Shown here piece after piece: positions 1,440 to 21,701 of a stretch of 22,757 nt of DNA. The translations under genes were made by a program, and so were the position numbers. Under the pieces are notes generated by a model that worked only from the letters and a program-made list of their open reading frames with translations, did no database searches and was not told the DNA's origin. The DNA is from a virus, in the IMG/VR virus record IMGVR_UViG_3300009149_000307, positions 1 through 22,757 of that record. One strand, 5' to 3'. The number at the start of each line of letters is the position of its first letter. The first letter of the stretch is position 1.

Positions 1440-2078
1440 CTATTTCTCTATAATTCTCGAACACTCTTGTATCATCTTATCGGTACCTGACTGAATATAA
1501 TAATCATCCATATCGGTTACCCCTCTATGCTCTAAGTATTCTTTAAACCCTTGAAGGGCTTTACCAAGTTCTCCACCTGTCAGGCCGAAAGTGTCCATAA
1601 CTGTCTTACCATTGAAAATGGTTGCAGCATACTTCTTCTTTGAGACCTCGTAATCAATTCTTGCAAGTTCATCCAAAAGACCAGCTTCTGGGAAGAACCT
1701 ATCAATCATAGACAAGTACTTCGTAGTATCCTTCTCGAATACAAACTCGTGGTCTTCATCTGCGACATTAGCATCCATCCACTCAAGGAACGTCATATAG
1801 GAAGCTCTCTTAAGGTTACGCTCTCTGTTAATTCGGTTCAACTCTGAAGGTTGGAACTTTTGCCAGTTGAAATATGGTGATTCGGAGATGAACTCAAAAA
1901 TCTCTTCCAGAGTGTCAAAACCTTTCAACCATCGTCTGTAGTCCAATCCCAAGAATTCATAAATCTTTGGGTAGTCCTTAGAAATCGGAATGTCGAATTT
2001 CTGGGAATAATTCTTCCCAGCGAATACCCTCATAAACAAATCAGTTTGCCCGTATTTTAAACTATATTTTATTCTCAT
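1440..2078 (-). CDS. Nucleotidyltransferase, C-terminal half (split gene)
   Basis: A 212-aa protein that begins in the middle of a fold. Its first residues (YSLKYGQTDLFMRVF) are what would follow FIGRLAHGF in intact phage nucleotidyltransferases, the sequence that ends the N-terminal half encoded at 2832-3242. The rest is helical: LGLDYRRWLKGF, a charged segment with NRINRERNLKR, and a terminal FNGKTVMDTFGLTGGELGKAL resembling the C-terminal motif of CCA-adding/poly(A) polymerases. The catalytic GD-D motif is absent here and lies in the other half. Its ATG overlaps the 3' end of the GIY-YIG gene upstream, so translation is probably coupled. The two halves may assemble in trans, as for the split NrdA of phage Aeh1. 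Confidence 0.75.
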   Translation of the reverse strand: MRIKYSLKYGQTDLFMRVFAGKNYSQKFDIPISKDYPKIYEFLGLDYRRWLKGFDTLEEIFEFISESPYFNWQKFQPSELNRINRERNLKRASYMTFLEWMDANVADEDHEFVFEKDTTKYLSMIDRFFPEAGLLDELARIDYEVSKKKYAATIFNGKTVMDTFGLTGGELGKALQGFKEYLEHRGVTDMDDYYIQSGTDKMIQECSRIIEK

Positions 2079-2778
2079 CTTCTTTATATTTCCAAACGAA
2101 ACCCCTACAAGTTTTTAACCTGCCGTTACAACAACCCCTACAATATACCCCCAATTCTCGCTCAACTTCTTTAGTGGAGTCCCATTCTCTAACAAATTCA
2201 CCGTCCAACGTATACTGTAGTACGGTTTTCTTTAATTTACTGGTTCTACTAAGCTTATCTCTAACATCTTGAGTGTGCTTCTTACCATAAAATGGGTTAT
2301 CAGACCCAAATCGACTCACACCATACATTCCATTATTTTGACCACTAGATAATTTAGACCTAGTAATCAACCAATCAGACCATTTATCCTCAATTTCATC
2401 TTCTGATAAACCCTTATCACGCCAAGCATCTCTAATTGTTTTACCATACATAGGGTTACGCTTACCTGATGTAGAGTTAGACATCTTTGATTTAGCCTCA
2501 TCGGTATGTATCAAACCTAACGAGCCACCCCCACCATCAGTTATATTATACCCAATGGTAGTACCACTTAATTTAGCAATCCAGAATACTTCCTTCACAT
2601 TTAATTCATCTTTATCAGCACACACCTCTAAAATTTCCTTACTAAAGTTTTCAACACCATACTTCTTAATTGCCCGTTTTAGTATTTTACCAGAACCTAA
2701 ATATTTAGGGTCATTATTAGCGTCTTGCCCAATATAATATTTACCATTAGTCTTATTTGTCGTCTTATATATTACCAT
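2062..2778 (-). CDS. GIY-YIG homing endonuclease (NUMOD3/NUMOD1 type), splits the nucleotidyltransferase
   Basis: A 238-aa protein. The GIY-YIG nuclease domain is at 3-90: IYKTTN at 3-8, YYIGQD at 14-19, and a catalytic-type Glu in VKEVFWI (about 63). Three NUMOD3-like DNA-contact motifs follow (GKRNPMYGKT near 105-114, GQNNGMYG near 146-153, GSDNPFYGKKHT near 158-169), then a NUMOD1-type C-terminal domain (185-232, LDGEFVREWDS ... CRGFVWKY). I chose the ATG at 2778 because the nuclease motif starts three residues later; a longer frame upstream only crosses the promoter-like motif. It lies between the two halves of the nucleotidyltransferase and overlaps the start of the C-terminal half. Confidence 0.9.
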   Translation of the reverse strand: MVIYKTTNKTNGKYYIGQDANNDPKYLGSGKILKRAIKKYGVENFSKEILEVCADKDELNVKEVFWIAKLSGTTIGYNITDGGGGSLGLIHTDEAKSKMSNSTSGKRNPMYGKTIRDAWRDKGLSEDEIEDKWSDWLITRSKLSSGQNNGMYGVSRFGSDNPFYGKKHTQDVRDKLSRTSKLKKTVLQYTLDGEFVREWDSTKEVERELGVYCRGCCNGRLKTCRGFVWKYKEDENKI

Positions 2779-2792
2779 AATAGTTCTTTTAT

Positions 2793-2801
2793 AATAAATA
2801 T
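2793..2801 (-). promoter_or_regulatory. Phage-type ATATTTATT motif
   Basis: Coding strand ATATTTATT 14 bp upstream of the GIY-YIG start at 2778. Confidence 0.4.
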
Positions 2802-2831
2802 AAACCAAAGGTCAAGAAGGACTATGATACA

Positions 2832-3242
2832 CTAAAATAAATCATCTGTATCTACTTCCCCTGAGAAGCCGTGAGCTAACCTACCAATAAAGTTACCTAA
2901 CCCAAAATTATAAAACATAGAATACGCCTCAAAATCACCATCACTACACATAATAAAGTCTATCTGTACGTCTCTATAATCAAATGACCAGCAATTACCG
3001 TTATGGTATATCTCATTAGGTTCGAAGGTGGTAGTAATGTATTCCCTAATATCAGGAGGTGTCATAGGTGTACTCACTATTATATCTATGTCGCCATGGG
3101 ATTCCTTATTTTCATGACATAAGACCAACCGATTCTCAATATTACCCAAAGTGAGAATGTTACAAATCTCCATAGAAATCTGTCTATATTCTGGATTATA
3201 AACCCTAACAGTTTTAATTGATTTTAATGCATTACCTCCCAT
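2832..3242 (-). CDS. Nucleotidyltransferase, N-terminal catalytic half (copy A)
   Basis: 136 aa starting MGGNALKS, typical of phage nucleotidyltransferases. The Pol-beta-type catalytic signature is visible: G50-D51-x-D53 in HGDIDIIVS and a third acidic residue, D95, in VQIDFIM. The conserved block NGNCWSFDY follows the second strand. It ends with GNFIGRLAHGF and then a ten-residue tail SGEVDTDDLF before the stop, where an intact protein would continue into the C-terminal half encoded at 1440-2078. It has its own host-type promoter at 3261-3268. An upstream in-frame extension to 3389 crosses that promoter and a palindrome, so it is rejected. It probably supplies the working N-domain. Confidence 0.75.
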   Translation of the reverse strand: MGGNALKSIKTVRVYNPEYRQISMEICNILTLGNIENRLVLCHENKESHGDIDIIVSTPMTPPDIREYITTTFEPNEIYHNGNCWSFDYRDVQIDFIMCSDGDFEAYSMFYNFGLGNFIGRLAHGFSGEVDTDDLF

Positions 3243-3260
3243 CTTATTCACTTTATGGTA

Positions 3261-3268
3261 CAAAGATA
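3261..3268 (-). promoter_or_regulatory. Host-type -7 box TATCTTTG
   Basis: TAnnTTTG box on the minus strand 18 bp upstream of the ATG at 3242; it separates expression of nucleotidyltransferase copy A from the endonuclease upstream. Confidence 0.6.
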
Positions 3269-3289
3269 CTAAATTATTACGAGAATTAC

Positions 3290-3323
3290 AATATATTGAC
3301 TCGTAATTACGAGTCAATATATT
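3290..3323. repeat. Perfect 34-bp palindrome at the endonuclease stop codon
   Basis: 3290-3306 and 3307-3323 are exact reverse complements with no spacer. The palindrome contains the last codons and the TAA of the GIY-YIG gene at 3307-4182. As RNA it would give a hairpin of about 15 bp with an AATT loop. Candidate terminator, DNA cruciform or protein-binding site at the cassette boundary. Confidence 0.9.
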
Positions 3324-4182
3324 CATAATACTTGGATTGCCCAATACCCATCTTAAGTAAAATTTCACGTATTGGTAGTTTCTCGACAAACCTCAACCTC
3401 TTTAACTCATCTATCTCATCATGAGATAATGATTTATAGCATTTACTATCCTTACCTTTACCTATTTTACGTTTTTCGTGTATTTTATTTATGTGTTCCC
3501 TACTTTTGGTGTAATCGTACCCCCTCAGTTTAACGTTAGCGGATTTCAAAGCATTTCTAACTACTTCATATGACATACCCCCCTTTTTACTTATTTTACG
3601 TAAAGATAAGCCAGACTCATAATCATCGACTAACCCCTTAATATCTTCTACAGTTAGATGAAGTTTATTTGTTGGTGGTTTACGTTTGGGGGTTATTCCG
3701 TTTTCTATTAAAATTCGTTTAACTTTATTTTCATTTAAGGATAATTTGTCTGCAATATGTTTTAGGTACCACCCATCACCATATAACCTAATAATTTCAT
3801 TTATAACATCACCCCCTAATTTTATATAATTACTCGGTGGTTTATTATTAGTCAATATGTTAGTTAGACTACCAGAACCGTTACACCTCCTACCAATTAA
3901 ATTTATCAATTTAGTTTCTAATGCGTAGGCTTCCTCTTCATATAGATTGGTTTTAACTTTTATTATTTCGGGTTTTAAACCAACATCATTTATTTTTTCT
4001 AAAACTCTATATTTAAAAACGTTTGGGGTCTCTTCCTCGGTTTCAGTCAAGTGTTTTAGATGTCTATTACCACAACTCTTACCAACATAAATAGGTTCAT
4101 AATTGAATCGATAATCATTAAATACGTAGACCCCTTCTTTCCTTGGGTCTAGATAGATATAAACATAATACTTCTTTTCCAT
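3307..4182 (-). CDS. GIY-YIG endonuclease with helix-turn-helix repeats
   Basis: A 291-aa protein with an N-terminal GIY-YIG domain (VYIYLDPR at 7-14, PIYVGKS near 30-36, ETKLINLIGRRC as the Glu-bearing helix). From about residue 120 it has several short helix-turn-helix-like units (WYLKHIADKLSLNENKVKRIL; LSLRKISKKGGMSYEVVRNAL; LPIREILLKMGIGQSKYYEYI), presumably for DNA recognition in place of NUMOD modules. The start lies 1-2 nt after the motif CATATTTATATG, which leaves almost no leader. It lies between nucleotidyltransferase copy B (upstream) and copy A (downstream), and its stop falls inside a perfect palindrome. Probably a homing endonuclease targeting the nucleotidyltransferase gene. 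Confidence 0.87.
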   Translation of the reverse strand: MEKKYYVYIYLDPRKEGVYVFNDYRFNYEPIYVGKSCGNRHLKHLTETEEETPNVFKYRVLEKINDVGLKPEIIKVKTNLYEEEAYALETKLINLIGRRCNGSGSLTNILTNNKPPSNYIKLGGDVINEIIRLYGDGWYLKHIADKLSLNENKVKRILIENGITPKRKPPTNKLHLTVEDIKGLVDDYESGLSLRKISKKGGMSYEVVRNALKSANVKLRGYDYTKSREHINKIHEKRKIGKGKDSKCYKSLSHDEIDELKRLRFVEKLPIREILLKMGIGQSKYYEYIDS

Positions 4183-4183
4183 A

Positions 4184-4195
4184 CATATAAATATG
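4184..4195 (-). promoter_or_regulatory. Phage-type CATATTTATATG motif
   Basis: CATATTTATATG on the coding strand ends 1 nt before the ATG of the endonuclease at 4182. The flanks TTTCCA/TGGAAA can extend it into a hairpin. Confidence 0.45.
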
Positions 4196-4226
4196 TGGAA
4201 AATCAGTAAAAGTCGAATATTAAATT

Positions 4227-4586
4227 CTAGTTACCTAGGTCGTTGAAACTTAGGTAGTTAAGGTTAGAGTCGAAATGTTCTCCGTCCACAAACATCAGGT
4301 CTATTTGGATTTCCTTGTAGTCAAAAGACCAGCAGTTACCGTTATGGAATATTTCATTCGGCTTGAATGTGCTTTCGATGTACTGTCGCTTATCCATGTT
4401 TTCATTACCCTTAGTGGATATTAGGATATCGATATCACCGAAGGTTTCCTTCTTGTGGTAATATCTAGGCACCTCAGCTTGGTCGAACGTTCGCCTAAGT
4501 ATCCTCAACAGCGCTGAAGAAGCCTTACTGAACTCAGCTTTAGTGTATCTTCTAGTAAATGTGTTTCGTAACGCTCTACCACCAAT
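4227..4586 (-). pseudogene. Nucleotidyltransferase N-terminal fragment (copy B), both ends broken
   Basis: The open frame encodes IGGRALRNTFTRRY..., colinear residue for residue with copy A. It keeps GD-D (FGDIDILIS, D51/D53), IQIDLMF (third acidic residue) and NGNCWSFDY. The expected initiator Met is replaced by Ile (ATT at 4584-4586) with no ATG upstream after an in-frame TAA, although ATT could start weakly; an internal ATG exists at 4508. The frame stops right after DLGN, exactly where copy A continues FIGRLAHGF. Each break coincides with the edge of a GIY-YIG gene. About half the residues match copy A, so this is a diverged homologue and not a recent duplicate. I read it as the stranded N-terminus of the original gene. 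Confidence 0.7.
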
Positions 4587-4598
4587 GATTTCTAGGTT

Positions 4599-5369
4599 TT
4601 AGTTTAGGTTCTTTAAGGTTTTACTAGTCTTATGTATACCAACACCAACAGCATTGGCAATCTCTACGATTGTTAGACCTTCACCCCTTAATTTAACCAT
4701 TTTGTTAATAATTCTTTTATCTAATGGTTTAGCGAAGTTACCACTTTTTTTTGTAATATGCAAATTATAATCAGAAATTTTTCTCCTGATACATGAAATG
4801 CTAACTTGAAAATCTTCGGCAACCTCTTTAATCGTTTTATCTTTCAGCTTACTTTCTAAAATATTTTTATCTATATGAATATAGCTAGAACTAGTGTCAC
4901 CAGTTAATTTACTTCTAGTTTCGGACATTTTAGTTATTGTTTCATCCGAGTATACGTTAGTTTTATATTTATTCCAAGGTTCCCTACCTATTTGAGATTC
5001 GCTCATTTTACGTCTAGACTTTTCAGTATGGGTCTTACCATAGAAGTGATTATTTTCACCACTCAATTTATTGATTATGTCTGGTAGGTTAGGGTTCATA
5101 GTATAGGTATCACCACCACTCCCACCTAAAGCTATATTATAACCAATGGTGGTAGCACTTAACTTATCAATCCAATATATCTCACACTCATTTAACTCTT
5201 TTTTAGTGTCACAGGTTTCAATTACTGTCTTTTTGAAGTTTTCTATACCATATTTATTGATTGCCCTACTCAAAATTAACCCAGAACCTAAATAATCTGG
5301 ATTATTTTTAGAGTCTTGACCTATATAAATTTTACCATTCACTAGATTTGTCGTTTTATAAATTATCAT
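4599..5369 (-). CDS. GIY-YIG homing endonuclease (NUMOD3 plus HTH)
   Basis: A 256-aa protein. The GIY-YIG domain is at 2-90 (IYKTTN at 3-8, IYIGQD at 14-19, CEIYWIDKL with the catalytic-type Glu). A NUMOD3-like motif (GENNHFYGKTHTEKSRRKM) is near 109-127, and the C-terminal half has two HTH-like units (KTIKEVAEDFQVSISCIRRKI and LTIVEIANAVGVGIHKTSKTL). The N-terminal domain closely resembles that of the endonuclease at 2062-2778. It ends 12 nt before the broken start of nucleotidyltransferase copy B, so it may have inserted at or near that gene's start codon. CATATTTACAT lies 15 bp upstream of its ATG. Confidence 0.9.
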   Translation of the reverse strand: MIIYKTTNLVNGKIYIGQDSKNNPDYLGSGLILSRAINKYGIENFKKTVIETCDTKKELNECEIYWIDKLSATTIGYNIALGGSGGDTYTMNPNLPDIINKLSGENNHFYGKTHTEKSRRKMSESQIGREPWNKYKTNVYSDETITKMSETRSKLTGDTSSSYIHIDKNILESKLKDKTIKEVAEDFQVSISCIRRKISDYNLHITKKSGNFAKPLDKRIINKMVKLRGEGLTIVEIANAVGVGIHKTSKTLKNLN

Positions 5370-5383
5370 ATCACATCTCTTTA

Positions 5384-5394
5384 ATGTAAATATG
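5384..5394 (-). promoter_or_regulatory. Phage-type CATATTTACAT motif
   Basis: Variant of the ATATTTATA motif, 14 bp upstream of the GIY-YIG gene start at 5369. Confidence 0.35.
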
Positions 5395-5426
5395 TATCTA
5401 CTAGTGAAAGTATTTTTTAAACGGTC

Positions 5427-5654
5427 TCATTTAATCAGATGCTCAACCTTATCACATGGTACACATGTAACCCCAAGACCAGTGGTACTAAAACTAAACG
5501 TCCTACGTGATGCTACAACGCCATAGCACAACCCAGTTCTACTATCTTTGACATATTTAATGTCCGTTGCATCAATATCAACGTTTCCAGATGTGTTTAC
5601 ACTACAACTGGTAAACAATACAGCGCATAGCGCCAAAATCCCTAACTTTTTCAT
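5427..5654 (-). CDS. Small lipoprotein
   Basis: 75 aa with a classical type II signal: MKK, a hydrophobic core (LGILALCAVL) and lipobox LFTSC with the acylated Cys at 17. The mature part is about 58 aa, with three further Cys (C43, C64, C67), including a CVPC pair. It would be attached to the cell envelope. Its start overlaps the stop of the 2H phosphoesterase gene (ATGA), so the two are translationally coupled. Phage lipoproteins may act in superinfection exclusion or lysis; which of these applies, if either, cannot be told. Confidence 0.8.
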   Translation of the reverse strand: MKKLGILALCAVLFTSCSVNTSGNVDIDATDIKYVKDSRTGLCYGVVASRRTFSFSTTGLGVTCVPCDKVEHLIK

Positions 5655-6196
5655 TCTATCCTTCCTTTTTTAATTAATTCGTGAATATATCTTGCGTGCG
5701 CTTCGTTCTGTCTAATAGCTTTTACCGCGTTATTACCATGGTCAATATTATCGTGACTATCTCTAGCATAACCTATCGACATATGATAATCAAAATAGGG
5801 GTCGCTTAACCCCAATTCGGTTCGTATCGTATCGAATTGTTTTCTCTCTTCCTCTGGTACGATTAGCCACCAATGGGTGGCGTCCGTTTTAGCGTCAACA
5901 CTTAAGGTAACGTTAACCTTCTTACCGTTCCACGTCTTCTTAACTTCTTCCCACTTACCGTTGGTGTCACTCTCCCTATCGTTGATGAAGGATATATGGC
6001 TGAATCTAAGGGGTTCCGCTAATGGTAGGTTATATCGTTTATTTATAAACCATGCGTAATAACCGCAAAGGTCTGATTTAGGGAACTTAACCATCGCCAC
6101 GCGCTTCCAACTACCTTGAGCTTCATGCTTTTTGGTGCGATTTTCAGGGTCGAATTCTATTACCCCAGTTACTGTTATAGTATTATCCCCAGTCAC
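5651..6196 (-). CDS. 2H phosphoesterase-like protein
   Basis: 181 aa with two H-x-S motifs typical of the 2H superfamily: H67-I-S69 in FSHISF and H138-M-S140 in YHMSIGYA, each at the end of a predicted strand. 2H enzymes act on 2',3'-cyclic phosphates and 2'-5' or 3'-5' linkages (LigT, CPDase, phage anti-CBASS Acb1). Residues 30-60 are a variable N-terminal extension. The start is a GTG at 6196, since no in-frame ATG precedes the conserved region. A host-type promoter sits at 6216-6223. The role could be RNA end repair or degradation of cyclic-oligonucleotide defence signals; the sequence does not decide. Confidence 0.7.
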   Translation of the reverse strand: MTGDNTITVTGVIEFDPENRTKKHEAQGSWKRVAMVKFPKSDLCGYYAWFINKRYNLPLAEPLRFSHISFINDRESDTNGKWEEVKKTWNGKKVNVTLSVDAKTDATHWWLIVPEEERKQFDTIRTELGLSDPYFDYHMSIGYARDSHDNIDHGNNAVKAIRQNEAHARYIHELIKKGRIE

Positions 6197-6215
6197 CCTT
6201 TTGATTAATATTCAA

Positions 6216-6223
6216 CAAATATA
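6216..6223 (-). promoter_or_regulatory. Host-type -7 box TATATTTG
   Basis: TAnnTTTG box on the minus strand 19 bp upstream of the GTG start of the 2H gene; it lies back to back with the plus-strand motif at 6255-6264. Confidence 0.55.
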
Positions 6224-6254
6224 CAATATTTATCCGACTTTTCCAAATCTTTCT

Positions 6255-6264
6255 CATATTTATA
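6255..6264 (+). promoter_or_regulatory. Phage-type CATATTTATA motif
   Basis: CATATTTATA on the plus strand, 19 bp upstream of the ribbon-helix-helix gene. Confidence 0.45.
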
Positions 6265-6283
6265 GTAAAGCAATAGATTTACA

Positions 6284-6430
6284 ATGGAAAAGAAAACGAA
6301 AGAAATAATGTTCAACGTAAGAGTTGAACGAGAGCTAAAGGATGCATTTATAAAGCACTGCAAAGATAATGGATATTCCATATCACAGAGACTAAGAATA
6401 TTATTAAAGAGAGATATCGATGGAGAATAA
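6284..6430 (+). CDS. Ribbon-helix-helix (Arc/CopG-like) DNA-binding protein
   Basis: 48 aa on the plus strand, opposite to most of the window. The pattern fits a minimal RHH protein: a basic strand (KEIMFNVRVERELK), helix A (DAFIKHCKDNG), a turn with Ser-Ile-Ser, and helix B (QRLRILLKRDI). RHH proteins dimerise and bind operators through the strand pair. Its last 11 nt overlap the start of the HNH endonuclease gene, so the two form one operon. The likely job is autoregulation of the endonuclease operon or target recognition with it; this is inferred from context only. Confidence 0.75.
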   Translation: MEKKTKEIMFNVRVERELKDAFIKHCKDNGYSISQRLRILLKRDIDGE

Positions 6431-7031
6431 AACATGCAAAAAGTGTGGGTCAGATAAACCACAGTCTGACTTCGGAAGAGATAAGAGTAGGGTAGATGGT
6501 TATAGTTACGTTTGTAAGGTGTGTAAAAATAGGTATAATAAAACTTACTACAATTTAAACACCGAAGCTAAACGTGATTACTATTTAGAAAATAGAGAAG
6601 GTATTAGTAATAATAATAAAGCTAAATACTATGAAAATAAAACTTTTTATTCTAATAAAAACCGTAAGTATCGTAATAACAGGTTAAAGAATGACCCATT
6701 ATTCAAATTGCGATATGATATTAAGGGTACTATACGTGACGCATTTAGGTCTAAAAATAAAGTTAAGGTCGGTTCAAGTTTAGACATTCTAGGGTGTTCA
6801 ATAATCGAATTTAAGGCTCATCTGGAAGCTCAGTTTGAACCGTGGATGAACTGGGATAATAAAGGTCTATATAATGGTGAATTGAATTATGGTTGGGATA
6901 TTGACCATATCATCCCAACTAGTTCGGCAATAACGGAAGAAGATATTATTAGGTTAAATCATTACACCAACTTGCAACCACTATGTAGTTACATTAATAG
7001 ATACGAAAAAAGGGGTAACGTTTTATGCTAA
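6420..7031 (+). CDS. HNH homing endonuclease with N-terminal zinc ribbon
   Basis: A 203-aa protein. The N-terminus has a CxxC...CxxC zinc ribbon (CKKCGSDKPQSDF, VCKVCKNRY), common in phage HNH proteins. The middle is basic and Asn/Lys-rich. The C-terminal HNH core reads WDIDHIIP (first His), LNHYTNLQPL (Asn) and CSYINRYEK. It overlaps the preceding RHH gene, and its 3' end overlaps the convergent PTH2-like gene by 9 nt. It shares the core WDIDH...SSAITEED.IRLNH.TNLQPLCSY with the HNH protein at 8950-9591, so the two are paralogues. Unlike the HAD locus, no duplicated neighbour fragment is visible here. Confidence 0.88.
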   Translation: MENKTCKKCGSDKPQSDFGRDKSRVDGYSYVCKVCKNRYNKTYYNLNTEAKRDYYLENREGISNNNKAKYYENKTFYSNKNRKYRNNRLKNDPLFKLRYDIKGTIRDAFRSKNKVKVGSSLDILGCSIIEFKAHLEAQFEPWMNWDNKGLYNGELNYGWDIDHIIPTSSAITEEDIIRLNHYTNLQPLCSYINRYEKRGNVLC

Positions 7032-7805
7032 TCTTTTTCCAGTTAAAAATTCCCTTAAAAAGGCGTTCTTAGGACCTCCCACTTTTTCAACCCACTTCTT
7101 ATAGTTTCGTGCGTTATCATCTTCCCAAGCTTTAATAGTTTCAGCATTTGGTGTGTAATTTGGTGCGTATGGTTTAGGTGTCGGTTCGAATGATGGGTAG
7201 TCGTCCTTTAGGAAGACTCTTTCATCTGCAATGAAACATATCGCTGTCATAGCATTGTTGAGGTCTGGTTCACAGAATGTATCAACGTGAACACCATTAT
7301 CACGCAACTCAATTAAGTGTTTCTGTAGGCTACCAATACCGAAATCTTCACAATCACCACTATTGGTGGTGCCGCCATTTAATATGATACTAGTCTTCCA
7401 CTTATCAGCCCATCTTTGATATCTATTCTTTAGTTCTGCGCTCTCGGCATTGTTGAGTGGCACCATTGTCTCCATGCTCCTACCGTAATCGGTAACAGCG
7501 TGTTGGAATTGAATACCTTGTTGGATACCCATCAACTGATAGATTACCAGACCATACATTTTCATCTCTAATAACTCATCCATCTTACGTGGACGTGAGT
7601 TCTCTTTATGGTCATGACACTCTAATTCCTCTAAAAACTCTTCTTTGGTGCATATCGATGCATGGAACGAATAGTTTGACAAACGGTCTTCCAGACCAGT
7701 CATATTCCAATATTGTGGCTCAAATGGTCGAACGTTAAATTCTAGGCACCATTCGTATGGCGACTTTTGAGTCCATGACTCTTCTTTACCAAGTTCTTGT
7801 ATCAT
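7023..7805 (-). CDS. PTH2-like (peptidyl-tRNA hydrolase 2 fold) phage protein
   Basis: 260 aa. The central part (about 77-195) has the order expected of PTH2-type proteins: a strand (MYGLVIYQLMGI), a basic/amide segment GIQFQHAVTDYG, WKTSIILNGGTTN, a helix LQKHLIELRDNGV and a strand TAICFIADERVF. I recall closely similar proteins from large phages that are annotated as PTH2-like. The N-terminal 75 residues and a Pro-rich C-terminal segment are extra. Canonical PTH2 frees peptidyl-tRNA; activity here is unproven. It is the last gene of a four-gene overlapping operon, sharing 20 nt with the preceding gene. Confidence 0.55.
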   Translation of the reverse strand: MIQELGKEESWTQKSPYEWCLEFNVRPFEPQYWNMTGLEDRLSNYSFHASICTKEEFLEELECHDHKENSRPRKMDELLEMKMYGLVIYQLMGIQQGIQFQHAVTDYGRSMETMVPLNNAESAELKNRYQRWADKWKTSIILNGGTTNSGDCEDFGIGSLQKHLIELRDNGVHVDTFCEPDLNNAMTAICFIADERVFLKDDYPSFEPTPKPYAPNYTPNAETIKAWEDDNARNYKKWVEKVGGPKNAFLREFLTGKRLA

Positions 7806-8007
7806 CTACAAATAGTTTTGGGTTAGCCATTATCCAGTTATATAGGAACTGTTGCATGTTAGGTTGTACAGGTACACCTCTCATGTATACCATGTTCTTA
7901 ACCAATTCGAATTCTTGTCCTTTCTTGAAGTTCAAATCGTTACCTAACGATGCATCTTCTTTTAGCTTAAGGACTCTGCCCGTTAATAAATCTTTCTTGT
8001 GTTGCAT
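7786..8007 (-). CDS. Small phage protein of unknown function
   Basis: 73 aa. The beginning is strand-rich with a Lys/Gly-rich turn (LNFKKGQEFELV), and the C-terminal half is helical and aromatic (FLYNWIMANPKLF, DTRTW). The N-terminal pattern of short strands around GQEFELV would suit a small beta-barrel such as SH3, but I do not recognise the family. It overlaps the PTH2-like gene (20 nt) and the preceding gene (1 nt), so it is expressed with them. Confidence 0.75.
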   Translation of the reverse strand: MQHKKDLLTGRVLKLKEDASLGNDLNFKKGQEFELVKNMVYMRGVPVQPNMQQFLYNWIMANPKLFVDDTRTW

Positions 8008-8219
8008 TACTTAATATTATATTTCTCTTTTATGGCCACTTCAGCCCGTCTTATCGCCTCCAAAGCTTGGTCGAATGTTACATACGTTTCGTCCTCCTTG
8101 AATCTGTTCAATAAGGATGGATTCGTCTTAGAGAAGTGCTGGTGGTGTAAGAAAACCTCCTTATACCCCGCACCTGTCTCTAAGCCGTATGGTTTTGCGT
8201 ATTTATCCCAATCAGACAT
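8007..8219 (-). CDS. Small phage protein of unknown function
   Basis: 70 aa, mostly helical, with a central SLLNRFKEDE and a long C-terminal helix FDQALEAIRRAEVAIKEKY. There are no metal-binding, catalytic or membrane signatures. It overlaps the HD gene upstream by 8 nt and abuts the next gene, so it is part of the 8718-7023 operon. Confidence 0.75.
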   Translation of the reverse strand: MSDWDKYAKPYGLETGAGYKEVFLHHQHFSKTNPSLLNRFKEDETYVTFDQALEAIRRAEVAIKEKYNIK

Positions 8220-8718
8220 AAGCTTCTACTTTAAATCCCATAAGTTCATCCAGTTCAGCCCATAGTGAGTCGGCCATCGTATCCGAAAATTTCAAAGCCT
8301 TTCTGAATTCAGGATACTCCTTAACATACATGTCAACCTTACCACCATGCTTGATGTTGGCTAGTCTATCTGCCAATTTAACTATGACCGCATCAGGATT
8401 GGATGCTATCTTTGGTAGTGTCTTAGTTTTGCGTTCCTTTCGGTTACGCCCCATCTCGTCAGTCACGCAGAACACAATCTCCGCCACATCTATACCGAAA
8501 TAGTTCTTGATTTTATTGTATGATACATCACAGTCCTCAATTGTATCGTGAAGCGCACTACATATTTGCAATTTGAAACCGCACCCATTATCGGATAATA
8601 CCTTTATGACATCCCTTAGATGTTTCTCATATGGGAAGATATTGTCATATCTTTGGTCCCCGTGGGCCGCTATAGCCACCATGATTGCTTCAGATAGTAA
8701 TTTCTCATTGTATTCCAT
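8212..8718 (-). CDS. HD-domain hydrolase, small alarmone hydrolase/MESH1-like
   Basis: 168 aa matching the hydrolase domain of SpoT/MESH1: AHGDQRY (H19), PYEKHL (H33), the HD pair in SALHDTIED (57-62), CVTDEMGRNRKER, and KLADRLANIKHG with the second Asp. These residues bind the metal that cleaves the 3'-pyrophosphate of (p)ppGpp. No synthetase, TGS or ACT domain is present, as in small alarmone hydrolases. It leads a four-gene overlapping operon with a host-type promoter at 8723-8730, which suggests early expression. It could lower host (p)ppGpp or counter toxic alarmone-type defences; this is inferred, and NADPH or other nucleotides are also possible substrates. Confidence 0.8.
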   Translation of the reverse strand: MEYNEKLLSEAIMVAIAAHGDQRYDNIFPYEKHLRDVIKVLSDNGCGFKLQICSALHDTIEDCDVSYNKIKNYFGIDVAEIVFCVTDEMGRNRKERKTKTLPKIASNPDAVIVKLADRLANIKHGGKVDMYVKEYPEFRKALKFSDTMADSLWAELDELMGFKVEAYV

Positions 8719-8722
8719 ATCA

Positions 8723-8730
8723 CAAAGATA
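8723..8730 (-). promoter_or_regulatory. Host-type -7 box TATCTTTG
   Basis: TAnnTTTG box on the minus strand only 4 bp upstream of the ATG at 8718, giving a very short leader. Confidence 0.6.
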
Positions 8731-8786
8731 CTAAATATTTTTGACTTTTACAAGTTTATTGTACTATCAAAATAATTCCGTATCAA

Positions 8787-8936
8787 TTAATCAATTGGAG
8801 AGTGGTGTTCACCCTTAATGTGATTCATGGTGTAGTTTTTCAACCTACCACTTTCCAGCATAGACTTACCCCATGCGTCAAACGTTGGGATATGTTCGTC
8901 TCTGTCGTCTTTTGGGTTCTCAGCCTTATATTTATA
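8787..8936 (-). pseudogene. HAD phosphatase C-terminal remnant
   Basis: A 49-codon open stretch without start codon, bounded upstream by TAG. Its translation from DDRDEHIPTF to GEHHSPID and stop is colinear with the last 40 residues of the intact HAD protein at 9573-10181 (DDRDQHIPTF ... GEHHSPID), but diverged (DAWGKSMLESGRLKNYT against QTWGDELVANGRLTNFT). It contains only HAD motif IV and begins almost exactly at that motif. It is the stranded 3' end of the original HAD gene whose 5' end is at 10961-11062. The plus-strand HNH gene's promoter-like motif (8927-8936) lies over its broken end. Confidence 0.8.
8927..8936 (+). promoter_or_regulatory. Phage-type TATATTTATA motif
   Basis: TATATTTATA on the plus strand 13 bp upstream of the HNH gene at 8950, at the junction with the HAD remnant. 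Confidence 0.45.
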
Positions 8937-8949
8937 CTAAAACAATACT

Positions 8950-9591
8950 ATGACACCAGAAGAAAAAAAAGAAGCAAAACGATTATACGATATAGATTAT
9001 CAGAAAAAAAATAGGGCTAAACTACGAGAACAAAAACGAATGTGGGCTAAAAATAATCCAGATAAGGTTGCTGCGTGTAGACTACGTAATAAAGAGGGGA
9101 AGAAAATTAGCGATAAAAAATACGCCCAAAAAAATGTCAAGCGAGAAAATGATAAAAAAATGTTATGGGCTAAAAATAACCCCGATAAACGTAAAAAAGC
9201 TAATGCGGATTATGTCCGTAAGAAGCTGGCTACCGACCCACTATATAAGTTGAAGCATTATACTAGATGCGCTATTAGGGGTGCGTTTAAGAAACGTGGG
9301 TATCGTAAGAAGTCTAGAACCCATGAAATATTAGGATGTTCATTCGATGAATTCAAATCGCATATTGAATCACAATGGGAAAATTGGATGAATTGGGATA
9401 ATTATGGTAACCCAGAGGATGGTATCTATGAGCCAAATAAGACGTGGGATATTGACCACGCTGTAGCAATATCGTCAGCAATAACTGAAGAAGATGTAAT
9501 CAGGTTAAACCATCATACAAATCTTCAGCCATTATGCAGTTACGATAATAGATTCATTAAGAAAGACCTACCTCAGTCTATTGGTGAGTGA
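8950..9591 (+). CDS. HNH homing endonuclease
   Basis: 213 aa on the plus strand. The first 100 residues are very basic and contain an internal repeat (RMWAKNNPDKVAACR and MLWAKNNPDKRKKAN), probably for DNA binding. The C-terminal HNH core is WDIDHAVA, LNHHTNLQPL, CSYDNRF. It lacks the N-terminal zinc ribbon of its paralogue at 6420-7031. Its last 19 nt overlap the 3' end of the intact HAD gene on the opposite strand, and its 5' side abuts the C-terminal remnant of another HAD gene. It therefore forms one flank of the cassette inserted in the HAD locus. Confidence 0.88.
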   Translation: MTPEEKKEAKRLYDIDYQKKNRAKLREQKRMWAKNNPDKVAACRLRNKEGKKISDKKYAQKNVKRENDKKMLWAKNNPDKRKKANADYVRKKLATDPLYKLKHYTRCAIRGAFKKRGYRKKSRTHEILGCSFDEFKSHIESQWENWMNWDNYGNPEDGIYEPNKTWDIDHAVAISSAITEEDVIRLNHHTNLQPLCSYDNRFIKKDLPQSIGE

Positions 9592-10181
9592 TGTTCACCT
9601 TTGATATGATTCATCGTAAAATTAGTCAGTCTACCATTAGCTACTAGCTCATCGCCCCAAGTTTGGAATGTCGGAATATGTTGGTCCCTATCATCATAGA
9701 GTGTTACATCAACGATGTTAGGATTGGCATTCAAAATTCGGTTAAGTTCACCAATCTTATAAGCAGATGTCTCACCTCTAGTATTGTAGTAATACCCATC
9801 AAAGGTAAATCCGTTCTTATCTAGAACAGCCTTAACTGCTCCCATAAGGTTAGCGAACTTAGTCGCACCAGTCTTATCTCCACGTCTTCCAGTCATCATG
9901 ATATTCATGGTGTCTGGTCTTGCTGTGGATGTTCTGTTAGCGGCAGCTACCTGCGCTAGTGGCTTCATCTCGAATATTCTTTGGTCAAGAGATTCAACTC
10001 TGCTCCACCAGCCAACATGTGGCCACTTTTGACCGTACTCCTTCTCCCAGATTGGCTTGCCAAACTCTGGTAGTGGCGTTGAAATAAGCGTCCCGTCAAA
10101 GTCGAAGACCTCCAATCGGGTAATCTTATTAACTTCTTCTGCTAGTCTTTTTCTCAATTTATCCAATATCTCATTTTCCAT
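9573..10181 (-). CDS. HAD-family phosphatase, Swiss-Army-Knife RNA-repair type
   Basis: 202 aa, complete. The HAD motifs are in order: I, DFDGT at 27-31 (nucleophile D27); II, T97 in MMTGRR; III, K142 in SAYKIGE; IV, D163-D164 in YDDRD. The start LEVFDFDGTL and the cap-less layout match the HAD_SAK family (Swiss Army Knife RNA-repair-like HAD domain), so a polynucleotide end phosphatase is the best guess. The N-terminal helix LDKLRKRLAEE before motif I is common in phage versions and may direct the protein into the virion. A host-type promoter is at 10203-10210. It sits between an HNH and a GIY-YIG gene, inside remnants of a homologous gene. Confidence 0.8.
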   Translation of the reverse strand: MENEILDKLRKRLAEEVNKITRLEVFDFDGTLISTPLPEFGKPIWEKEYGQKWPHVGWWSRVESLDQRIFEMKPLAQVAAANRTSTARPDTMNIMMTGRRGDKTGATKFANLMGAVKAVLDKNGFTFDGYYYNTRGETSAYKIGELNRILNANPNIVDVTLYDDRDQHIPTFQTWGDELVANGRLTNFTMNHIKGEHHSPID

Positions 10182-10202
10182 TATAATCGTTTTCTATCTT
10201 TA

Positions 10203-10210
10203 CAAAGGTA
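10203..10210 (-). promoter_or_regulatory. Host-type -7 box TACCTTTG
   Basis: TAnnTTTG box 21 bp upstream of the intact HAD gene. Confidence 0.55.
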
Positions 10211-10225
10211 CGAAATTAATTTGGA

Positions 10226-10921
10226 TTAAACAACCTTGAATTTCCACACATAACCATATGCATGTTTTGATTTACCCCTTAAATTCGCACTAATATTTTT
10301 TCTACATAACCCAAGCTCCAGCTCAACATCTTTAGCACTTTTCCACTCTTTCAGTAGGTTACCATCCGAATCAAACTGTAATATTGGTTTTTTAATGCTT
10401 TCAGCGTTATTTTTAATCCAATCGGCTGATTTGGTAACCTTCTTACCCACCAATTTCTTATTAGCCTCTTGACAAGCTATTGTGTTACCTATTTTTTTCC
10501 TACTTTCGGATATTAATTTTTTAGTCTCCTCCGTGTGTTTCTTATAAGTTCTTCTCTTATTAGACTCAATTATCTTTTTTTTATGTTCGTCACTAATTTT
10601 TCTCCCAAATCCACCATCACCCCCCAAGGTTAAATTCATTCCATTTTCGTTATTACCGTGGAACGAATTAAATAATCCGATAAAGAAAATTTCTAACTTA
10701 TTTAATTCTAATAATGTATTTTCACCTTCATAAAGTATATCAAATGTATGACCACTAAATCCATATTTTAATAATGAATGATAAATAAGTGGTTGTTTTT
10801 TACACTTTAATCTCCTATAATATGATAATCTCTGTTTTAAATTGATTGTTTTTCCAACATATATCCTACCACTTGGTGATTCTAATTTATAGATAATTCC
10901 TGTTTTTTTAATTGGCTCCAT
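10226..10921 (-). CDS. GIY-YIG homing endonuclease (NUMOD1 type)
   Basis: A 231-aa protein: GIY-YIG domain at 7-90 (GIIYKLESPSGRIYVGKT, LNKLEIFFIGLF with the Glu), a linker with NUMOD3-like KKHTEETKKLISESRKK, and a C-terminal NUMOD1 module (SDGNLLKEWKSAKDVELEL ... HAYGYVWKF) like that of the endonuclease at 2062-2778. The start is the ATG at 10921, just before the nuclease motif; an upstream TTG in the same frame lies across a hairpin. It is preceded by the N-terminal HAD remnant and followed by the intact HAD gene. It probably cut a HAD gene at the sequence encoding the DFDGTL active site. Confidence 0.9.
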   Translation of the reverse strand: MEPIKKTGIIYKLESPSGRIYVGKTINLKQRLSYYRRLKCKKQPLIYHSLLKYGFSGHTFDILYEGENTLLELNKLEIFFIGLFNSFHGNNENGMNLTLGGDGGFGRKISDEHKKKIIESNKRRTYKKHTEETKKLISESRKKIGNTIACQEANKKLVGKKVTKSADWIKNNAESIKKPILQFDSDGNLLKEWKSAKDVELELGLCRKNISANLRGKSKHAYGYVWKFKVV

Positions 10922-10943
10922 ATAAATAAATATGGAGCCAATT
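10910..10943. repeat. 13-bp inverted repeat with 8-nt AT loop over the endonuclease start
   Basis: 10910-10922 and 10931-10943 are perfect reverse complements; the loop with its edges carries the ATATTTATTTATATG version of the phage motif. The ATG at 10919-10921 lies within the stem, so the hairpin could hide the start or terminate upstream transcripts. Confidence 0.85.
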
Positions 10944-10960
10944 CTCGAAATCAAAAGAAT

Positions 10961-11062
10961 TTAAACGATTAAAGTACCGTCAAAATCAAATACCTCTAAT
11001 CTGTTAATTCTAGCTTCTTCGCTCAATCTTTCTCTTAATTTCTGTAATACTTCGCTTTCCAT
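10961..11062 (-). pseudogene. HAD phosphatase N-terminal remnant
   Basis: A 33-codon ORF with ATG. It reads MESEVLQKLRERL...RLEVFDFDGTLI followed by Val and stop. It aligns with residues 1-33 of the intact HAD protein (MENEILDKLRKRL...RLEVFDFDGTLI) but is diverged, and it breaks immediately after catalytic motif I. The GIY-YIG gene begins 40 nt later. Together with the C-terminal remnant at 8787-8936 it frames the cassette. A phage-type motif (11075-11083) lies 12 bp upstream, so the truncated peptide may still be made. Confidence 0.82.
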
Positions 11063-11074
11063 TATTCTTTTTTC

Positions 11075-11083
11075 TATAAATAG
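11075..11083 (-). promoter_or_regulatory. Phage-type CTATTTATA motif
   Basis: CTATTTATA followed by GAAAA on the minus strand, upstream of the HAD N-terminal remnant and directly after the hairpin at 11085-11115. Confidence 0.4.
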
Positions 11084-11084
11084 T

Positions 11085-11115
11085 TAATTGGGTGGACTAA
11101 ATGCCCACCCAATTA
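11085..11115 (-). terminator. Hairpin at the end of the metallophosphoesterase gene
   Basis: An 11-bp perfect stem (11085-11095 with 11105-11115) and 9-nt loop overlapping the TAA of the gene upstream. The following sequence (AACTATTTATAG) is only moderately U-rich, so termination is plausible but not certain. Confidence 0.55.
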
Positions 11116-11817
11116 TACTTCGATGTCGGTTCTTAGGTCATAGGTATCGTTGATACCAATTACCCTGAACTTGACTCCCTCATGCAACGTTACTTCGTTG
11201 GTGTGGAAGTGTCCGTACAACCAATCGGTGATATTGTTATTCTCTTTCAGAATATCGTACATTTCCGTTAGGTCATTCCTTTCCTGAGCCAACATTTGAA
11301 TCAGCAACGGGTCATCTTTTGCAAAACCTCTTACGAAACCTCTTACGAAACCATTGATTCCGACAGGATGCGCAAAATGCGGTGCTGTATGAGTCACCAC
11401 AACGTCAATATCTCGCATCTCAGCCAATATCTCTCGTTCTAGTACAAATACCTCATCTGGCCACCAAAAGTTCATCATAGCCATTCTAGGTACTCTGTCA
11501 ACACTGATTGCGCCACCTACACCAAGCACTCTTTTACCCTCAATCTCAACTACCGTGTAGTCTGGGATTAACTTGATATTATCGTACATGTGGTCACCAG
11601 TCCAAAATGCTGGATTATCGTGATTACCACGAATGACCCACATAGTGTTATTGGTTGCCTTCAGTTTGGCATCCAGTCTCTTGAGTATAACTCCACCATT
11701 GATGATGCTGTCACCCATACCAAAATCACCAACATGGAAGAGATTCAACCCCTCCATCTTAGCAAACAGGTACTCAAGGTACCCGAAGTTTCCGTGTGTA
11801 TCACCCAAAAAGACCAA
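11113..11817 (-). CDS. Calcineurin-like metallophosphoesterase
   Basis: 234 aa with the complete set of metal-binding motifs: GDTHGN (5-10), GDFG (30-33), RGNHDN (63-68), THTAP (142-146) and GHFH (202-205). The order fits the PPP/bacteriophage-lambda-phosphatase-like family, which hydrolyses phosphomonoesters or nucleic-acid phosphates. No ATG is available: the frame is closed by TAA a few codons upstream, leaving TTG at 11815-11817 or an ACG three codons earlier in KKLVFLGD. A 12-bp tandem repeat (11326-11349) adds a second FVRG unit after the THTAP motif. A host-type box is at 11846-11853. The neighbours suggest an RNA-end phosphatase role, but protein phosphatase is equally possible. Confidence 0.85.
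   Translation of the reverse strand: MVFLGDTHGNFGYLEYLFAKMEGLNLFHVGDFGMGDSIINGGVILKRLDAKLKATNNTMWVIRGNHDNPAFWTGDHMYDNIKLIPDYTVVEIEGKRVLGVGGAISVDRVPRMAMMNFWWPDEVFVLEREILAEMRDIDVVVTHTAPHFAHPVGINGFVRGFVRGFAKDDPLLIQMLAQERNDLTEMYDILKENNNITDWLYGHFHTNEVTLHEGVKFRVIGINDTYDLRTDIEV
11326..11349. repeat. 12-bp tandem duplication
   Basis: Two exact copies of a 12-bp unit inside the metallophosphoesterase gene, in frame, giving FVRGFVRG. Confidence 0.9.
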
Positions 11818-11845
11818 TTTCTTCGTTTTTAGTTAATTTATATTG

Positions 11846-11853
11846 CAAATATA
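11846..11853 (-). promoter_or_regulatory. Host-type -7 box TATATTTG
   Basis: TAnnTTTG box about 28 bp upstream of the metallophosphoesterase start. Confidence 0.5.
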
Positions 11854-11884
11854 CGTATATTAATCGAGTTATGCAAATTTATTT

Positions 11885-12091
11885 TCAAGAAAAGTACCAA
11901 TAAAGGAATGAACCAATTATATTCAACCATCCAATAGTACAAATAGCCACATAACTATACATTAATGTTTGTACGGCTACGTGTTGCTTCTTAATCCACT
12001 CCATCGGTTCCTCAAATTGAGGGTGTAAGCCTATGAAATTCAATATGGCTATAATACTGAATAACCATAATAACTTATATAAAAAAATCAT
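11885..12091 (-). CDS. Small two-helix membrane protein
   Basis: 68 aa with two membrane segments: residues 2-21 (FLYKLLWLFSIIAILNFIGL) and about 42-66 (TLMYSYVAICTIGWLNIIG and a C-terminal FLYWYF). Between them is a charged loop (EEPMEWIKKQH). Its ATG overlaps the stop of the CYTH gene (ATGA), so it is translated with that gene. Function is unknown; a holin or envelope modifier is conceivable. Confidence 0.75.
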   Translation of the reverse strand: MIFLYKLLWLFSIIAILNFIGLHPQFEEPMEWIKKQHVAVQTLMYSYVAICTIGWLNIIGSFLYWYFS

Positions 12092-12591
12092 ACTCTTATC
12101 TGTGTTGCCGCAACTTCATCTGTAATGGCTAGGTTCTCATTGTAAAATTCGTCCATCCCAGTAACTTCCATCAACGTACATACTTCTACATCCTTTGGTA
12201 TGTCGAACTCGTGGTCTTCACTAGGTAACTCTACCTCCGCAATCATCATTCGTGTTGTCAGGAAATCATCAATCTCCCATGTCAAATCACCAATCTTCTT
12301 CTTGTACCGTAACTTAACCAGACTCTTCAAACTTTGTTCCTCTGCCCTATCATATTCTGGCTTCGTTACCTCATGCTCAATCTCAGTACATGACATATCC
12401 GACATTCTCTTCTTCCTCGTCTTGTGGTACGTTGCAACCCCATCATTTGCAGTTGCTCGATACCTAACTGTAAACCCTTCCTTATCTCTAGGAAGATAGC
12501 ATTGGTGTATCTCCAATAGTTCGTCATAATCGAATCTGAATGGGTTAACCCTCATCAGATACTTACGTTCAATTTCAAAGTCTTTTGGCAT
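12088..12591 (-). CDS. CYTH/triphosphate tunnel metalloenzyme
   Basis: 167 aa. It opens with the CYTH signature E-x-E-x-K (E6, E8, K10 in FEIERKYL). The expected alternating strands with inward charged residues follow: FTVRYRA, ATYHKTRKK, EIEHEVTK, RYKKKIGDLTWEIDDF and MIAEVELP. Family members hydrolyse tripolyphosphate, thiamine triphosphate or RNA 5'-triphosphates, or make cAMP. Start: the ATG at 12591; the frame continues upstream to a TTG inside the promoter box, which is unlikely. A host-type box lies at 12613-12620. In this context, RNA 5'-triphosphatase or nucleotide-triphosphate clearance are reasonable guesses. Confidence 0.85.
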   Translation of the reverse strand: MPKDFEIERKYLMRVNPFRFDYDELLEIHQCYLPRDKEGFTVRYRATANDGVATYHKTRKKRMSDMSCTEIEHEVTKPEYDRAEEQSLKSLVKLRYKKKIGDLTWEIDDFLTTRMMIAEVELPSEDHEFDIPKDVEVCTLMEVTGMDEFYNENLAITDEVAATQIRV

Positions 12592-12612
12592 GTTAATCAG
12601 TTTATTCTTTTG

Positions 12613-12620
12613 CAAAGATA
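12613..12620 (-). promoter_or_regulatory. Host-type -7 box TATCTTTG
   Basis: TAnnTTTG box 21 bp upstream of the CYTH start codon. Confidence 0.6.
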
Positions 12621-12664
12621 CAGAATTAAATCCATAATTCCTAATCTTTATCGTAATATATCTT

Positions 12665-12913
12665 TCATCCTAAATCGTCTAACCATATTGGGCTGTCGTC
12701 ACCAAGAGATGAACCAGCCACGTTGAATTCGAAGTATTCAACAGCATCATCTGGTGTCATCTCTTGTACTTCGACAAGAACCTCTAAACATTTTTCAATT
12801 GAATAAATTAATAGCATCTTATACGGGTCAATACCTATGACCGCACTATCGAAACCATCGGCAGTATAAAACCCACCTTCTGGGTACATCTCATATATGT
12901 CATCTAATATCAT
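12665..12913 (-). CDS. Conserved small phage protein
   Basis: 82 aa, acidic. GGFYTADGFDSAVIGIDP, a strand LLIYSIEKC, a helix LEVLVEVQEM, DAVEYFEFNVAGSS and the C-terminal DDSPIW are familiar from unannotated proteins in many T4-like phages, but no function is known to me. It overlaps the end of the kinase-2H gene by 4 nt (ATGA). Confidence 0.8.
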   Translation of the reverse strand: MILDDIYEMYPEGGFYTADGFDSAVIGIDPYKMLLIYSIEKCLEVLVEVQEMTPDDAVEYFEFNVAGSSLGDDSPIWLDDLG

Positions 12914-13752
12914 GATTTTATTTCAGTTACGCGACCCCTCAGACTCACGTATGAATCTAATGGTTCCCAATTAGTAATTTTATTGGATATGAATGGCTTT
13001 CCGCCTTCCGCAGCGTTAACCGCAAGTGTAATATGCGGAATGTCATTGGTTGACGGATAACCATCTACCTTAACAGCTATAGCCAAATCAGACTTACCAA
13101 TCTCGGTCGCTCTTATATCAACGACCTTACCCAAATCAGACTTAATGTCCTCTGGTAATCCTTTAGCGAACACAATGGTCATATGATGAGCAAATGTCTT
13201 CCATCCCTTCGGAATTAGATGTCCCAATGCCGTCAACAATTTAGCGTGTGACTTATCATCCAATACTACAGCAGAATATAGAACCTTTGGTCGGTTTTGG
13301 TCGCCAGAGGATTCCATAATCTTTTTAACCGTTAATGTCCCAACACTCTTATGCACTTCAATCATCTTCTTAATCTTATCCAATGGTACACCGTGAGTAT
13401 TTCGTCCAGCCAATACTTCAGCAGTCAAACCGTTTGTTCCAACGTCTTCAACCGTAATGTTAGCATCCGAATAACCCAATTCCAATGCTGTCTTAACATA
13501 TGCTTTCGCATCTGAAGCCTTAAGATTCGTGTTGTCGATAACAATTGGTGTTACACCCTCCACCATAGACGCCTTGGCGTTTGTATGGTTCTTACTGTGC
13601 ATCTTACCGTGGTCAGACCAGTCCTTAGACTCGTTCATTCTCTTGAAGGCTCCCAAATAATCTCCAGTAGCTTCCCAAAGGTCGTCAGTTGAGTGGATTA
13701 CACCTTCTCCAACAATCTCGTTAGCTCTAGTGCTCTTACCAGCTCCTGTCAC
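12910..13752 (-). CDS. P-loop polynucleotide kinase/2H cyclic phosphodiesterase fusion (main part)
   Basis: 280 aa from a GTG start. The N-terminal kinase domain has the Walker A end TGAGKST (2-8), HSTDDLW (20-26), DNTN (73-76) and NTHGVP (118-123), as in N4BP2-like/CNPase-like P-loop kinases. The C-terminal 2H domain has H190-M-T192 and H240-I-T242. This order matches the kinase-CPD part of fungal tRNA ligase and the layout of CNPase, so it could phosphorylate 5'-OH and open 2',3'-cyclic phosphates on cleaved RNA. The first beta-strand and first Walker Gly are missing here. They are encoded in another frame just upstream (13749-13871), and the GTG overlaps that ORF's TGA as GTGA. An AGGGG sits 4 nt before the GTG. 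Confidence 0.8.
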   Translation of the reverse strand: MTGAGKSTRANEIVGEGVIHSTDDLWEATGDYLGAFKRMNESKDWSDHGKMHSKNHTNAKASMVEGVTPIVIDNTNLKASDAKAYVKTALELGYSDANITVEDVGTNGLTAEVLAGRNTHGVPLDKIKKMIEVHKSVGTLTVKKIMESSGDQNRPKVLYSAVVLDDKSHAKLLTALGHLIPKGWKTFAHHMTIVFAKGLPEDIKSDLGKVVDIRATEIGKSDLAIAVKVDGYPSTNDIPHITLAVNAAEGGKPFISNKITNWEPLDSYVSLRGRVTEIKS

Positions 13753-19603: not shown

Positions 19604-19604
19604 A

Positions 19605-19616
19605 CATATAAATATG
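19605..19616 (-). promoter_or_regulatory. Phage-type CATATTTATATG motif
   Basis: Full CATATTTATATG, ending 1 nt before the endonuclease ATG at 19603. Confidence 0.5.
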
Positions 19617-19641
19617 CAGCTAAGGTACAAAAGTTCCAAAG

Positions 19642-19714: not shown

Positions 19715-19717
19715 TTA

Positions 19718-21033: not shown

Positions 21034-21038
21034 CTTAT

Positions 21039-21686: not shown

Positions 21687-21701
21687 ATCTACAATTATTC
21701 T

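Follow-up and report, generated by a model that had tools for sequence, protein, structure and literature searches.

The DNA analysed here, referred to as the window, is 22,757 nt long and is the complete 22.8-kb virus record IMGVR_UViG_3300009149_000307. Read along the minus strand, its central part carries a metallophosphatase gene, an N-terminal piece of a HAD gene, a GIY-YIG gene, an intact HAD_SAK_1 gene, an HNH gene on the other strand, a C-terminal HAD piece and an HD-domain gene. When the intact HAD was used to search the window, exactly two other matching places were found, 10964-11062 (-), sharing 73% amino acid identity with HAD residues 1-34 (E=2e-9), and 8790-8909 (-), sharing 73% with residues 163-202 (E=6e-18). 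Neither match is due to chance, and the record holds no HAD sequences besides the intact gene and these two pieces. The order N remnant, GIY-YIG, intact HAD, antisense HNH and C remnant, described in a first-pass annotation of this DNA, was thus recovered. That annotation also correctly read the C remnant as starting with DDRDEHIPTF and keeping its stop, but it placed the start at 8936, while homology begins at 8909 (GACGACAGAGACGAACAT) and 8936-8910 is the leader of the HNH gene. Although the window's own junctions lie in one contig, the architecture itself was found elsewhere too; a chimeric assembly is unlikely, given that several contigs and lineages show the arrangement, L030/L033 even with the double invasion. 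The features of the locus are:

8787..8909 (-): C-terminal HAD remnant (DDRDEHIPTF...SPID-stop), 40 codons plus stop
8950..9591 (+): HNH endonuclease gene (WDIDH...TNLQPLC...NRFIKKD), antisense to HAD, family A3
9573..9695 (-): HAD 3' end (DDRDQH...SPID-stop), 72% nucleotide identity to the C remnant
9573..10181 (-): intact HAD_SAK_1 phosphatase-like gene, 202 aa
10083..10181 (-): HAD replacement 5' end, 33 codons, with the altered site TTCGACTTTGA (from the recoding analysis and the L009 comparison below)
10203..10233 (-): TTG-N-TAccTTTG promoter-like sequence before the restored HAD start, which we take to be of Bacteroidota type
10226..10921 (-): GIY-YIG homing endonuclease gene with GIY, NUMOD3 and I-HmuI NUMOD-like domains (Pfam, PHROG)
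10910..10943 (-): 14-bp hairpin in which lie both the GIY start codon (ATG 10921) and the ATATTTAT promoter-like motif of the phage; -21.2 kcal/mol, z=-7.2
10945..10955 (-): TTTGATTTCGA, near-copy of the FDFDG-coding target beside the GIY start; putative operator and homing-site mimic
10961..11062 (-): N-terminal remnant of the native HAD (MESEVLQ...DFDGTLIV-stop), 33 codons, in the native position behind the metallophosphatase gene
11817-11113 (-): metallophosphatase gene, directly before the N remnant

The intact HAD matched Pfam HAD_SAK_1 above the cut-off (E=8e-14) and keeps the residues that are invariant in the HAD alignment (DFDGT, TGR, K142 and DDR..H), so that family profile and motifs I-IV place it among the HAD_SAK_1 phosphatases, in agreement with the earlier suggestion that the function of the target is kept. 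Single-protein HAD scans of viral and genome contigs gave no match, and neither did a search of solved structures with the HAD; a scan with the HAD alignment yielded 80 loci.

For the GIY-YIG protein, Pfam matches to GIY-YIG and NUMOD3 lay at the cut-off and that to the I-HmuI NUMOD-like domain just below it, and PHROG homing endonucleases were matched with E=1e-20. Residues Y20, G22, R30, E76 and N95 are invariant in the GIY alignment A2. Conserved catalytic residues, a separate DNA-binding region and optional, site-specific presence in five pairs of alleles (see below) all point to a GIY-YIG homing endonuclease; the solved-structure search returned Endonuclease II as its sole match. As judged from the start position conserved across relatives, the gene most likely starts at ATG 10921 and not at TTG 10954. 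Hairpins at the GIY start are also present in other lineages, weaker than that of the window. An 11-mer mimic of the target site with at most one mismatch stands between remnant and GIY start in 8/8 lineages, compared with about 1% or less for shuffled leaders. In I-TevI, an operator mimics the homing site and blocks the promoter (PMC2988022). By analogy, the target copy beside the endonuclease start, for GIY and HNH alike, may be an autorepressor site.

The ATATTTAT motif occurs at 1406, 2801, 4194, 10933, 15526, 17616, 19615 and 21712 on the minus strand and at 6256, 8928 and 16377 on the plus strand. It sits about 0-20 nt before most endonuclease gene starts and before several other genes, and is probably a phage promoter class separate from the TAnnTTTG sites.

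The GIY-YIG element in occupied and empty HAD alleles

GIY relatives were sought upstream of every HAD locus and then with the GIY family as query. The order N remnant, GIY, HAD was found in eight lineages (the window, L012, L016/L017/L110, L030/L033, L044, L066/L115, L112 and L119), in all of which the remnant runs from the HAD start through FDFDGT plus zero to four residues and then stops. A remnant precedes every GIY gene of at least 58% identity for which upstream sequence is available; the sole close GIY left out of this count is that of L118, an end fragment. Across lineages, the GIY proteins are 63-87% identical (mean 69%) and their HAD bodies 34-65% (mean 45%), the extreme being L112/L030 with 87% for GIY versus 55% for the HAD body, and the DNA match between L066 and L017 is confined to the stretch bounded by the remnant and functional sites (78%). 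Such comparisons of sequence show that the GIY element spreads horizontally. At L121:3001-3621, a GIY relative of 51% identity that shares the TTTTCGATTTTGATAA leader precedes another HAD-like gene (MDFDSTMSR); no remnant is visible there, and the target may have been switched.

Five pairs of occupied and empty alleles were available, namely L066/L059, L119/L056, L012/L011, L112/L020 and window/L009. In L066/L059, positions 1-1910 correspond to 4120-6031 (79%) and 2654-5725 to 6010-9093 (86%); these matches overlap by 22 nt of L059, and therefore L066 has gained 743 bp plus a target repeat. L119/L056 are 88% identical before the site and 94% after it, with a 26-nt overlap and a 686-bp gain. 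The insertion amounts to about 690-740 bp, with which L012/L011 and L112/L020 agree, and the target repeats flanking it are 22-33 nt long. In the occupied alleles, the site is followed by the body of the empty relative (right after the site, L119 is 91-94% and L066 86% identical to the empty relatives), and the native start (e.g., MKDKIRMILREG... in the relatives of L119) is replaced. In L012, L016, L044, L066, L112 and L119, the final codons of the GIY gene contain the new start of HAD, read in a different frame; the new start of the window comes with a TAccTTTG promoter-like sequence of its own and a leader of 33 codons.

The closest relative of the window, L009, is syntenic (PNK, CYTH, metallophosphatase, HAD, HNH, HD). 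It has neither GIY gene nor N remnant, and its HNH protein, sharing 84% amino acid identity with that of the window, is followed only by a scrap coding for NPKDDRDEH; the two endonucleases therefore arrived separately. L012, L016, L044 and L066, in which GIY is present and no HNH gene was found downstream, agree with this. Both endonucleases are also found together in the distant phage L030. At the nucleotide level, the window and L009 are 77% identical in the metallophosphatase gene, 78% in CYTH and 76% in the HAD body. The 5' spacer of the N remnant is 77% identical over 44 nt to that of the uninterrupted HAD of L009. The first 33 codons of the remnant reach 79%, versus 72% for the first 97 nt of the new HAD N-terminus, a direction consistent with a foreign start on a native body, although the N-terminal stretch is short. 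By these small differences in identity, the intact HAD would be a hybrid of the resident gene, with a new 5' end, the native body and probably a new 3' end.

The target has an 11-nt core, TTTGATTTTGA. No functional HAD of the eight occupied lineages matches it exactly (1-4 mismatches), whereas the remnants of the same lineages have 0-1 (paired comparison with the functional sites, p=0.016). Among 60 empty HADs, the mean is 0.85 mismatches and 21 are exact; against these, the functional sites of occupied alleles are recoded (MWU p=0.0002), in line with the earlier expectation that the resident site is altered. These statistics are not fully independent because the eight lineages share an element, and the divergence could in part be drift in donor lineages.

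The HNH gene at the 3' end of the HAD gene

At their stops, the HNH and HAD genes share 19 bp (9573-9591). The WDIDH, NLQPLC and NR.I residues of the HNH motif are invariant in alignment A3; a Pfam search of the window's copy gave no HNH match, and relatives alone matched weakly (PF01844/HNH_4, E=0.015-0.018). All HNH relatives of at least 55% identity adjoin a HAD gene. With the HNH of L030 (52-53% identity) included, eight lineages carry the gene, antisense to HAD in the window, L009, L030, L131 and L165 and in sense orientation in L090, L092 and L132. A DDRxEH-like DNA motif of about 20 nt, which in the window forms the first nucleotides of the remnant, abuts the HNH start in 8/8 lineages. 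It is frameshifted in L132 and interrupted by a stop in L165 and is still present, so that DNA rather than peptide seems to be kept. HNH-bearing HADs have possibly lost the E of DDRxEH.

The C remnant is full only in the window, about 20 nt being left in the other HNH lineages. The layout of a duplicated, diverged gene end plus a remnant, which the GIY gene displays in eight lineages, is complete for HNH in the window only. From the same layout, the HAD 3' end at 9573..9695 is presumed to have been delivered along with the HNH gene. On the simplest reading, the antisense HNH group appears to be a mirror image of the GIY element, with a mechanism less certain than that of GIY.

For this side alone, a strong competitor, to which we give somewhat less than an even chance, is that the HNH gene is a classical free-standing gene of intronless homing that co-converts the HAD 3' end, the C remnant being the by-product of one recombination. 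In L090, L092 and L132, the sense-oriented gene follows the HAD stop with the DDRxEH-like motif only, which fits classical intronless homing equally well, and L132 compared with L006 shows an insertion between the HAD end and a ClpS-like gene. However, in the five antisense lineages the motif stands beyond the HNH gene and is oriented like HAD, as expected of a leftover C-terminus, and the window retains all 40 codons plus the stop. The search for a close relative that lacks HNH and retains the native 3' flank of HAD turned up none: L010 is only distantly related, and L238, which has a HAD without HNH, shows little DNA similarity.

Readings of the two-ended arrangement

The homing-type invasion and the break points at catalytic motifs I and IV put forward in the first-pass annotation are supported. 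The form of the invasion proposed there, in which the endonucleases brought along a complete foreign HAD cassette and the old gene lost its middle part, is improbable. In its favour, the window alone shows a full gene between two remnants, with both ends 73% identical and a promoter-like sequence of its own. Against it, no old-gene leftover was seen downstream of HAD in L012, L016, L044 and L066. Native bodies with a replaced N-terminus in L119, L066, L012 and L112 also speak against insertion of a complete second HAD, as does the window's body, whose identity to L009 tracks that of the neighbouring genes.

It is very unlikely that the endonucleases lie inside a self-splicing group I intron or an intein, with the remnants as exons. 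GIY and HNH genes are often intron-borne; nevertheless, the remnants end in stops, the target recurs in the downstream gene, which has a start of its own, and HNH is antisense. A search for Rfam group I or II introns in the window, L066, L119, L012 and L030 found none, and a group I intron was rejected on the lack of a match in these five loci. Decay of tandem HAD duplicates, with the endonucleases arriving later at other sites, has almost no probability: the remnants are indeed diverged and non-functional, but comparison with phages carrying an uninterrupted HAD found a single gene in the empty relatives, which excludes tandem duplication followed by decay for the GIY side, and the same end codons in eight lineages and the 22-33 nt target repeats also speak against it.

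We consider it very likely that two separate homing endonuclease elements have invaded the HAD gene, one from each end, with the GIY element breaking motif I and supplying a new start. The GIY-YIG element would be a mobile unit aimed at the DNA coding for FDFDGT, catalytic motif I. Its enzyme would cut an element-free HAD gene at this site, and repair templated by the donor would copy in the GIY gene and a new HAD 5' end, the old 5' end staying upstream as the remnant. The start codon would come with the new end, from the last GIY codons in another frame in several phages and from a promoter and about 33 codons in the window. Since the site is altered in the new end, by synonymous or F-to-L changes, the gene once repaired is expected to be resistant to the enzyme. 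As the reading frame runs on into the native body, enzyme function would be kept, and imprecise loss of the element would harm the gene. By supplying a new, altered start, the selfish gene could thus spread without destroying its target. The HNH element may do likewise at motif IV (DDRxEH), replacing the HAD 3' end.

A second target gene and relation to known systems

A nucleotidyltransferase-like (NT) gene, whole in L009 and L010, lies in pieces at 5426-1440 in the window, together with three GIY-YIG genes:

5394..5426 (-): NT N remnant (DRLKNTFTSRY)
4599..5369 (-): GIY-YIG gene flanked by the NT N remnant and the restored NT start GGRALRNTFTRRY; same order in L210, L220 and L229
4227..4598 (-): native NT N part, cut exactly at NDLGN; 74% nucleotide identity to L010
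3307..4182 (-): GIY-YIG gene following NDLGN; a homolog is present in L231 and a decayed scar in L215
2832..3241 (-): diverged NT N part serving as replacement, with a TATCTTTG promoter-like site of its own
2062..2778 (-): GIY-YIG gene splitting NT, the ATG of the C part lying within its last codons; same order in L231
1440..2078 (-): NT C part, 77% amino acid identity to L009

In L231, the homolog of the gene at 3307 has the same order as in the window, before a diverged new NT N part. The layout of remnant, GIY gene and restored start is seen for two of the three GIY genes here, the one at 2062 splitting the gene, and it is thus shared by more than one endonuclease and more than one gene.

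Introns and inteins are regarded as the main means by which selfish endonucleases persist in coding sequence. Phages probably possess a class of spliceless homing elements that break into a conserved gene where a catalytic motif is encoded and make it whole again with a recoded terminus, which can bring a new start codon overlapping the endonuclease gene. At least three GIY families and one HNH family would have converged on this strategy, by which both ends of a gene can be taken. If true, rebuilding a broken gene end would be a third route for phage endonucleases in coding sequence, directly testable with the clean occupied/empty pairs. It would also explain gene scraps and truncated duplicates beside GIY and HNH genes in large phages, imply that start-site annotation beside such endonucleases may be wrong, and provide a natural counterpart of engineered home-and-rescue drives.

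The nearest known kind is the mobile ORFs of fungal mitochondria that replace a C-terminus and make hybrid genes, in Allomyces atp6 and in Glomus atp6, atp9, cox2 and nad3 (PMC3630166). These too combine an endonuclease gene, GIY-YIG in the atp9 case, with a replacement gene end and leave the native end as a remnant; the hybrid gene is expressed, and the native end is conserved by synonymous change only (PMC3630166). Different from them, the phage GIY element replaces the N-terminus with a new start codon, and one gene is invaded at both ends; the HNH side alone resembles the C-terminal type. Intronless homing by T4 Seg/Mob enzymes likewise involves no intron, a conserved target gene and co-conversion of flanks during spread, but such genes are usually intergenic and hundreds to thousands of bp away from the site that is cut (PMC2988022), whereas the phage GIY gene lies inside the coding sequence of its target and leaves a repeat and a remnant. 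Placement beside the target does fit HNH in L090, L092 and L132. Aeh1 mobE in nrdA and T4 mobA in gene 60 (PMC2988022) are inserted in a critical coding part, as is the GIY gene at 2062 in NT; unlike these split genes, the HAD is made whole again. I-TevI also has an upstream homing-site mimic, a hairpin at the start and a phage promoter-like motif (PMC2988022), but is intron-borne, unlike the GIY gene here, for which repression would be by analogy. The engineered home-and-rescue drive HomeR (PMC7968924) similarly cuts a needed gene and carries restoring sequence, while the phage element is natural and would restore only the gene end beside the cut. Among the papers covered by a limited literature search, none described a phage version, and none described replacement of an N-terminus, supply of a start codon or invasion of a gene from two ends.

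Elsewhere in the window, a second HNH gene at 6420-7031 (+) overlaps with its 3' end the stop of the gene at 7023-7805, and a short ORF before it resembles a ribbon-helix-helix DNA-binding protein (region 6284-7031). Two GIY-YIG-like genes at 18652-19793 lie beside a tRNA-Arg pair (anticodons acg and cct), recalling the SegB-type tRNA targeting of T-even phages. An RNA-repair-like cluster (5651-13752 and 21872-22618) comprises PNK/phosphodiesterase, CYTH, metallophosphatase and HAD_SAK genes, a possible 2H phosphoesterase, a CCA-adding-like enzyme and four tRNAs. Two neighbouring ORFs at 20458-21737 resemble diverged tandem paralogues.
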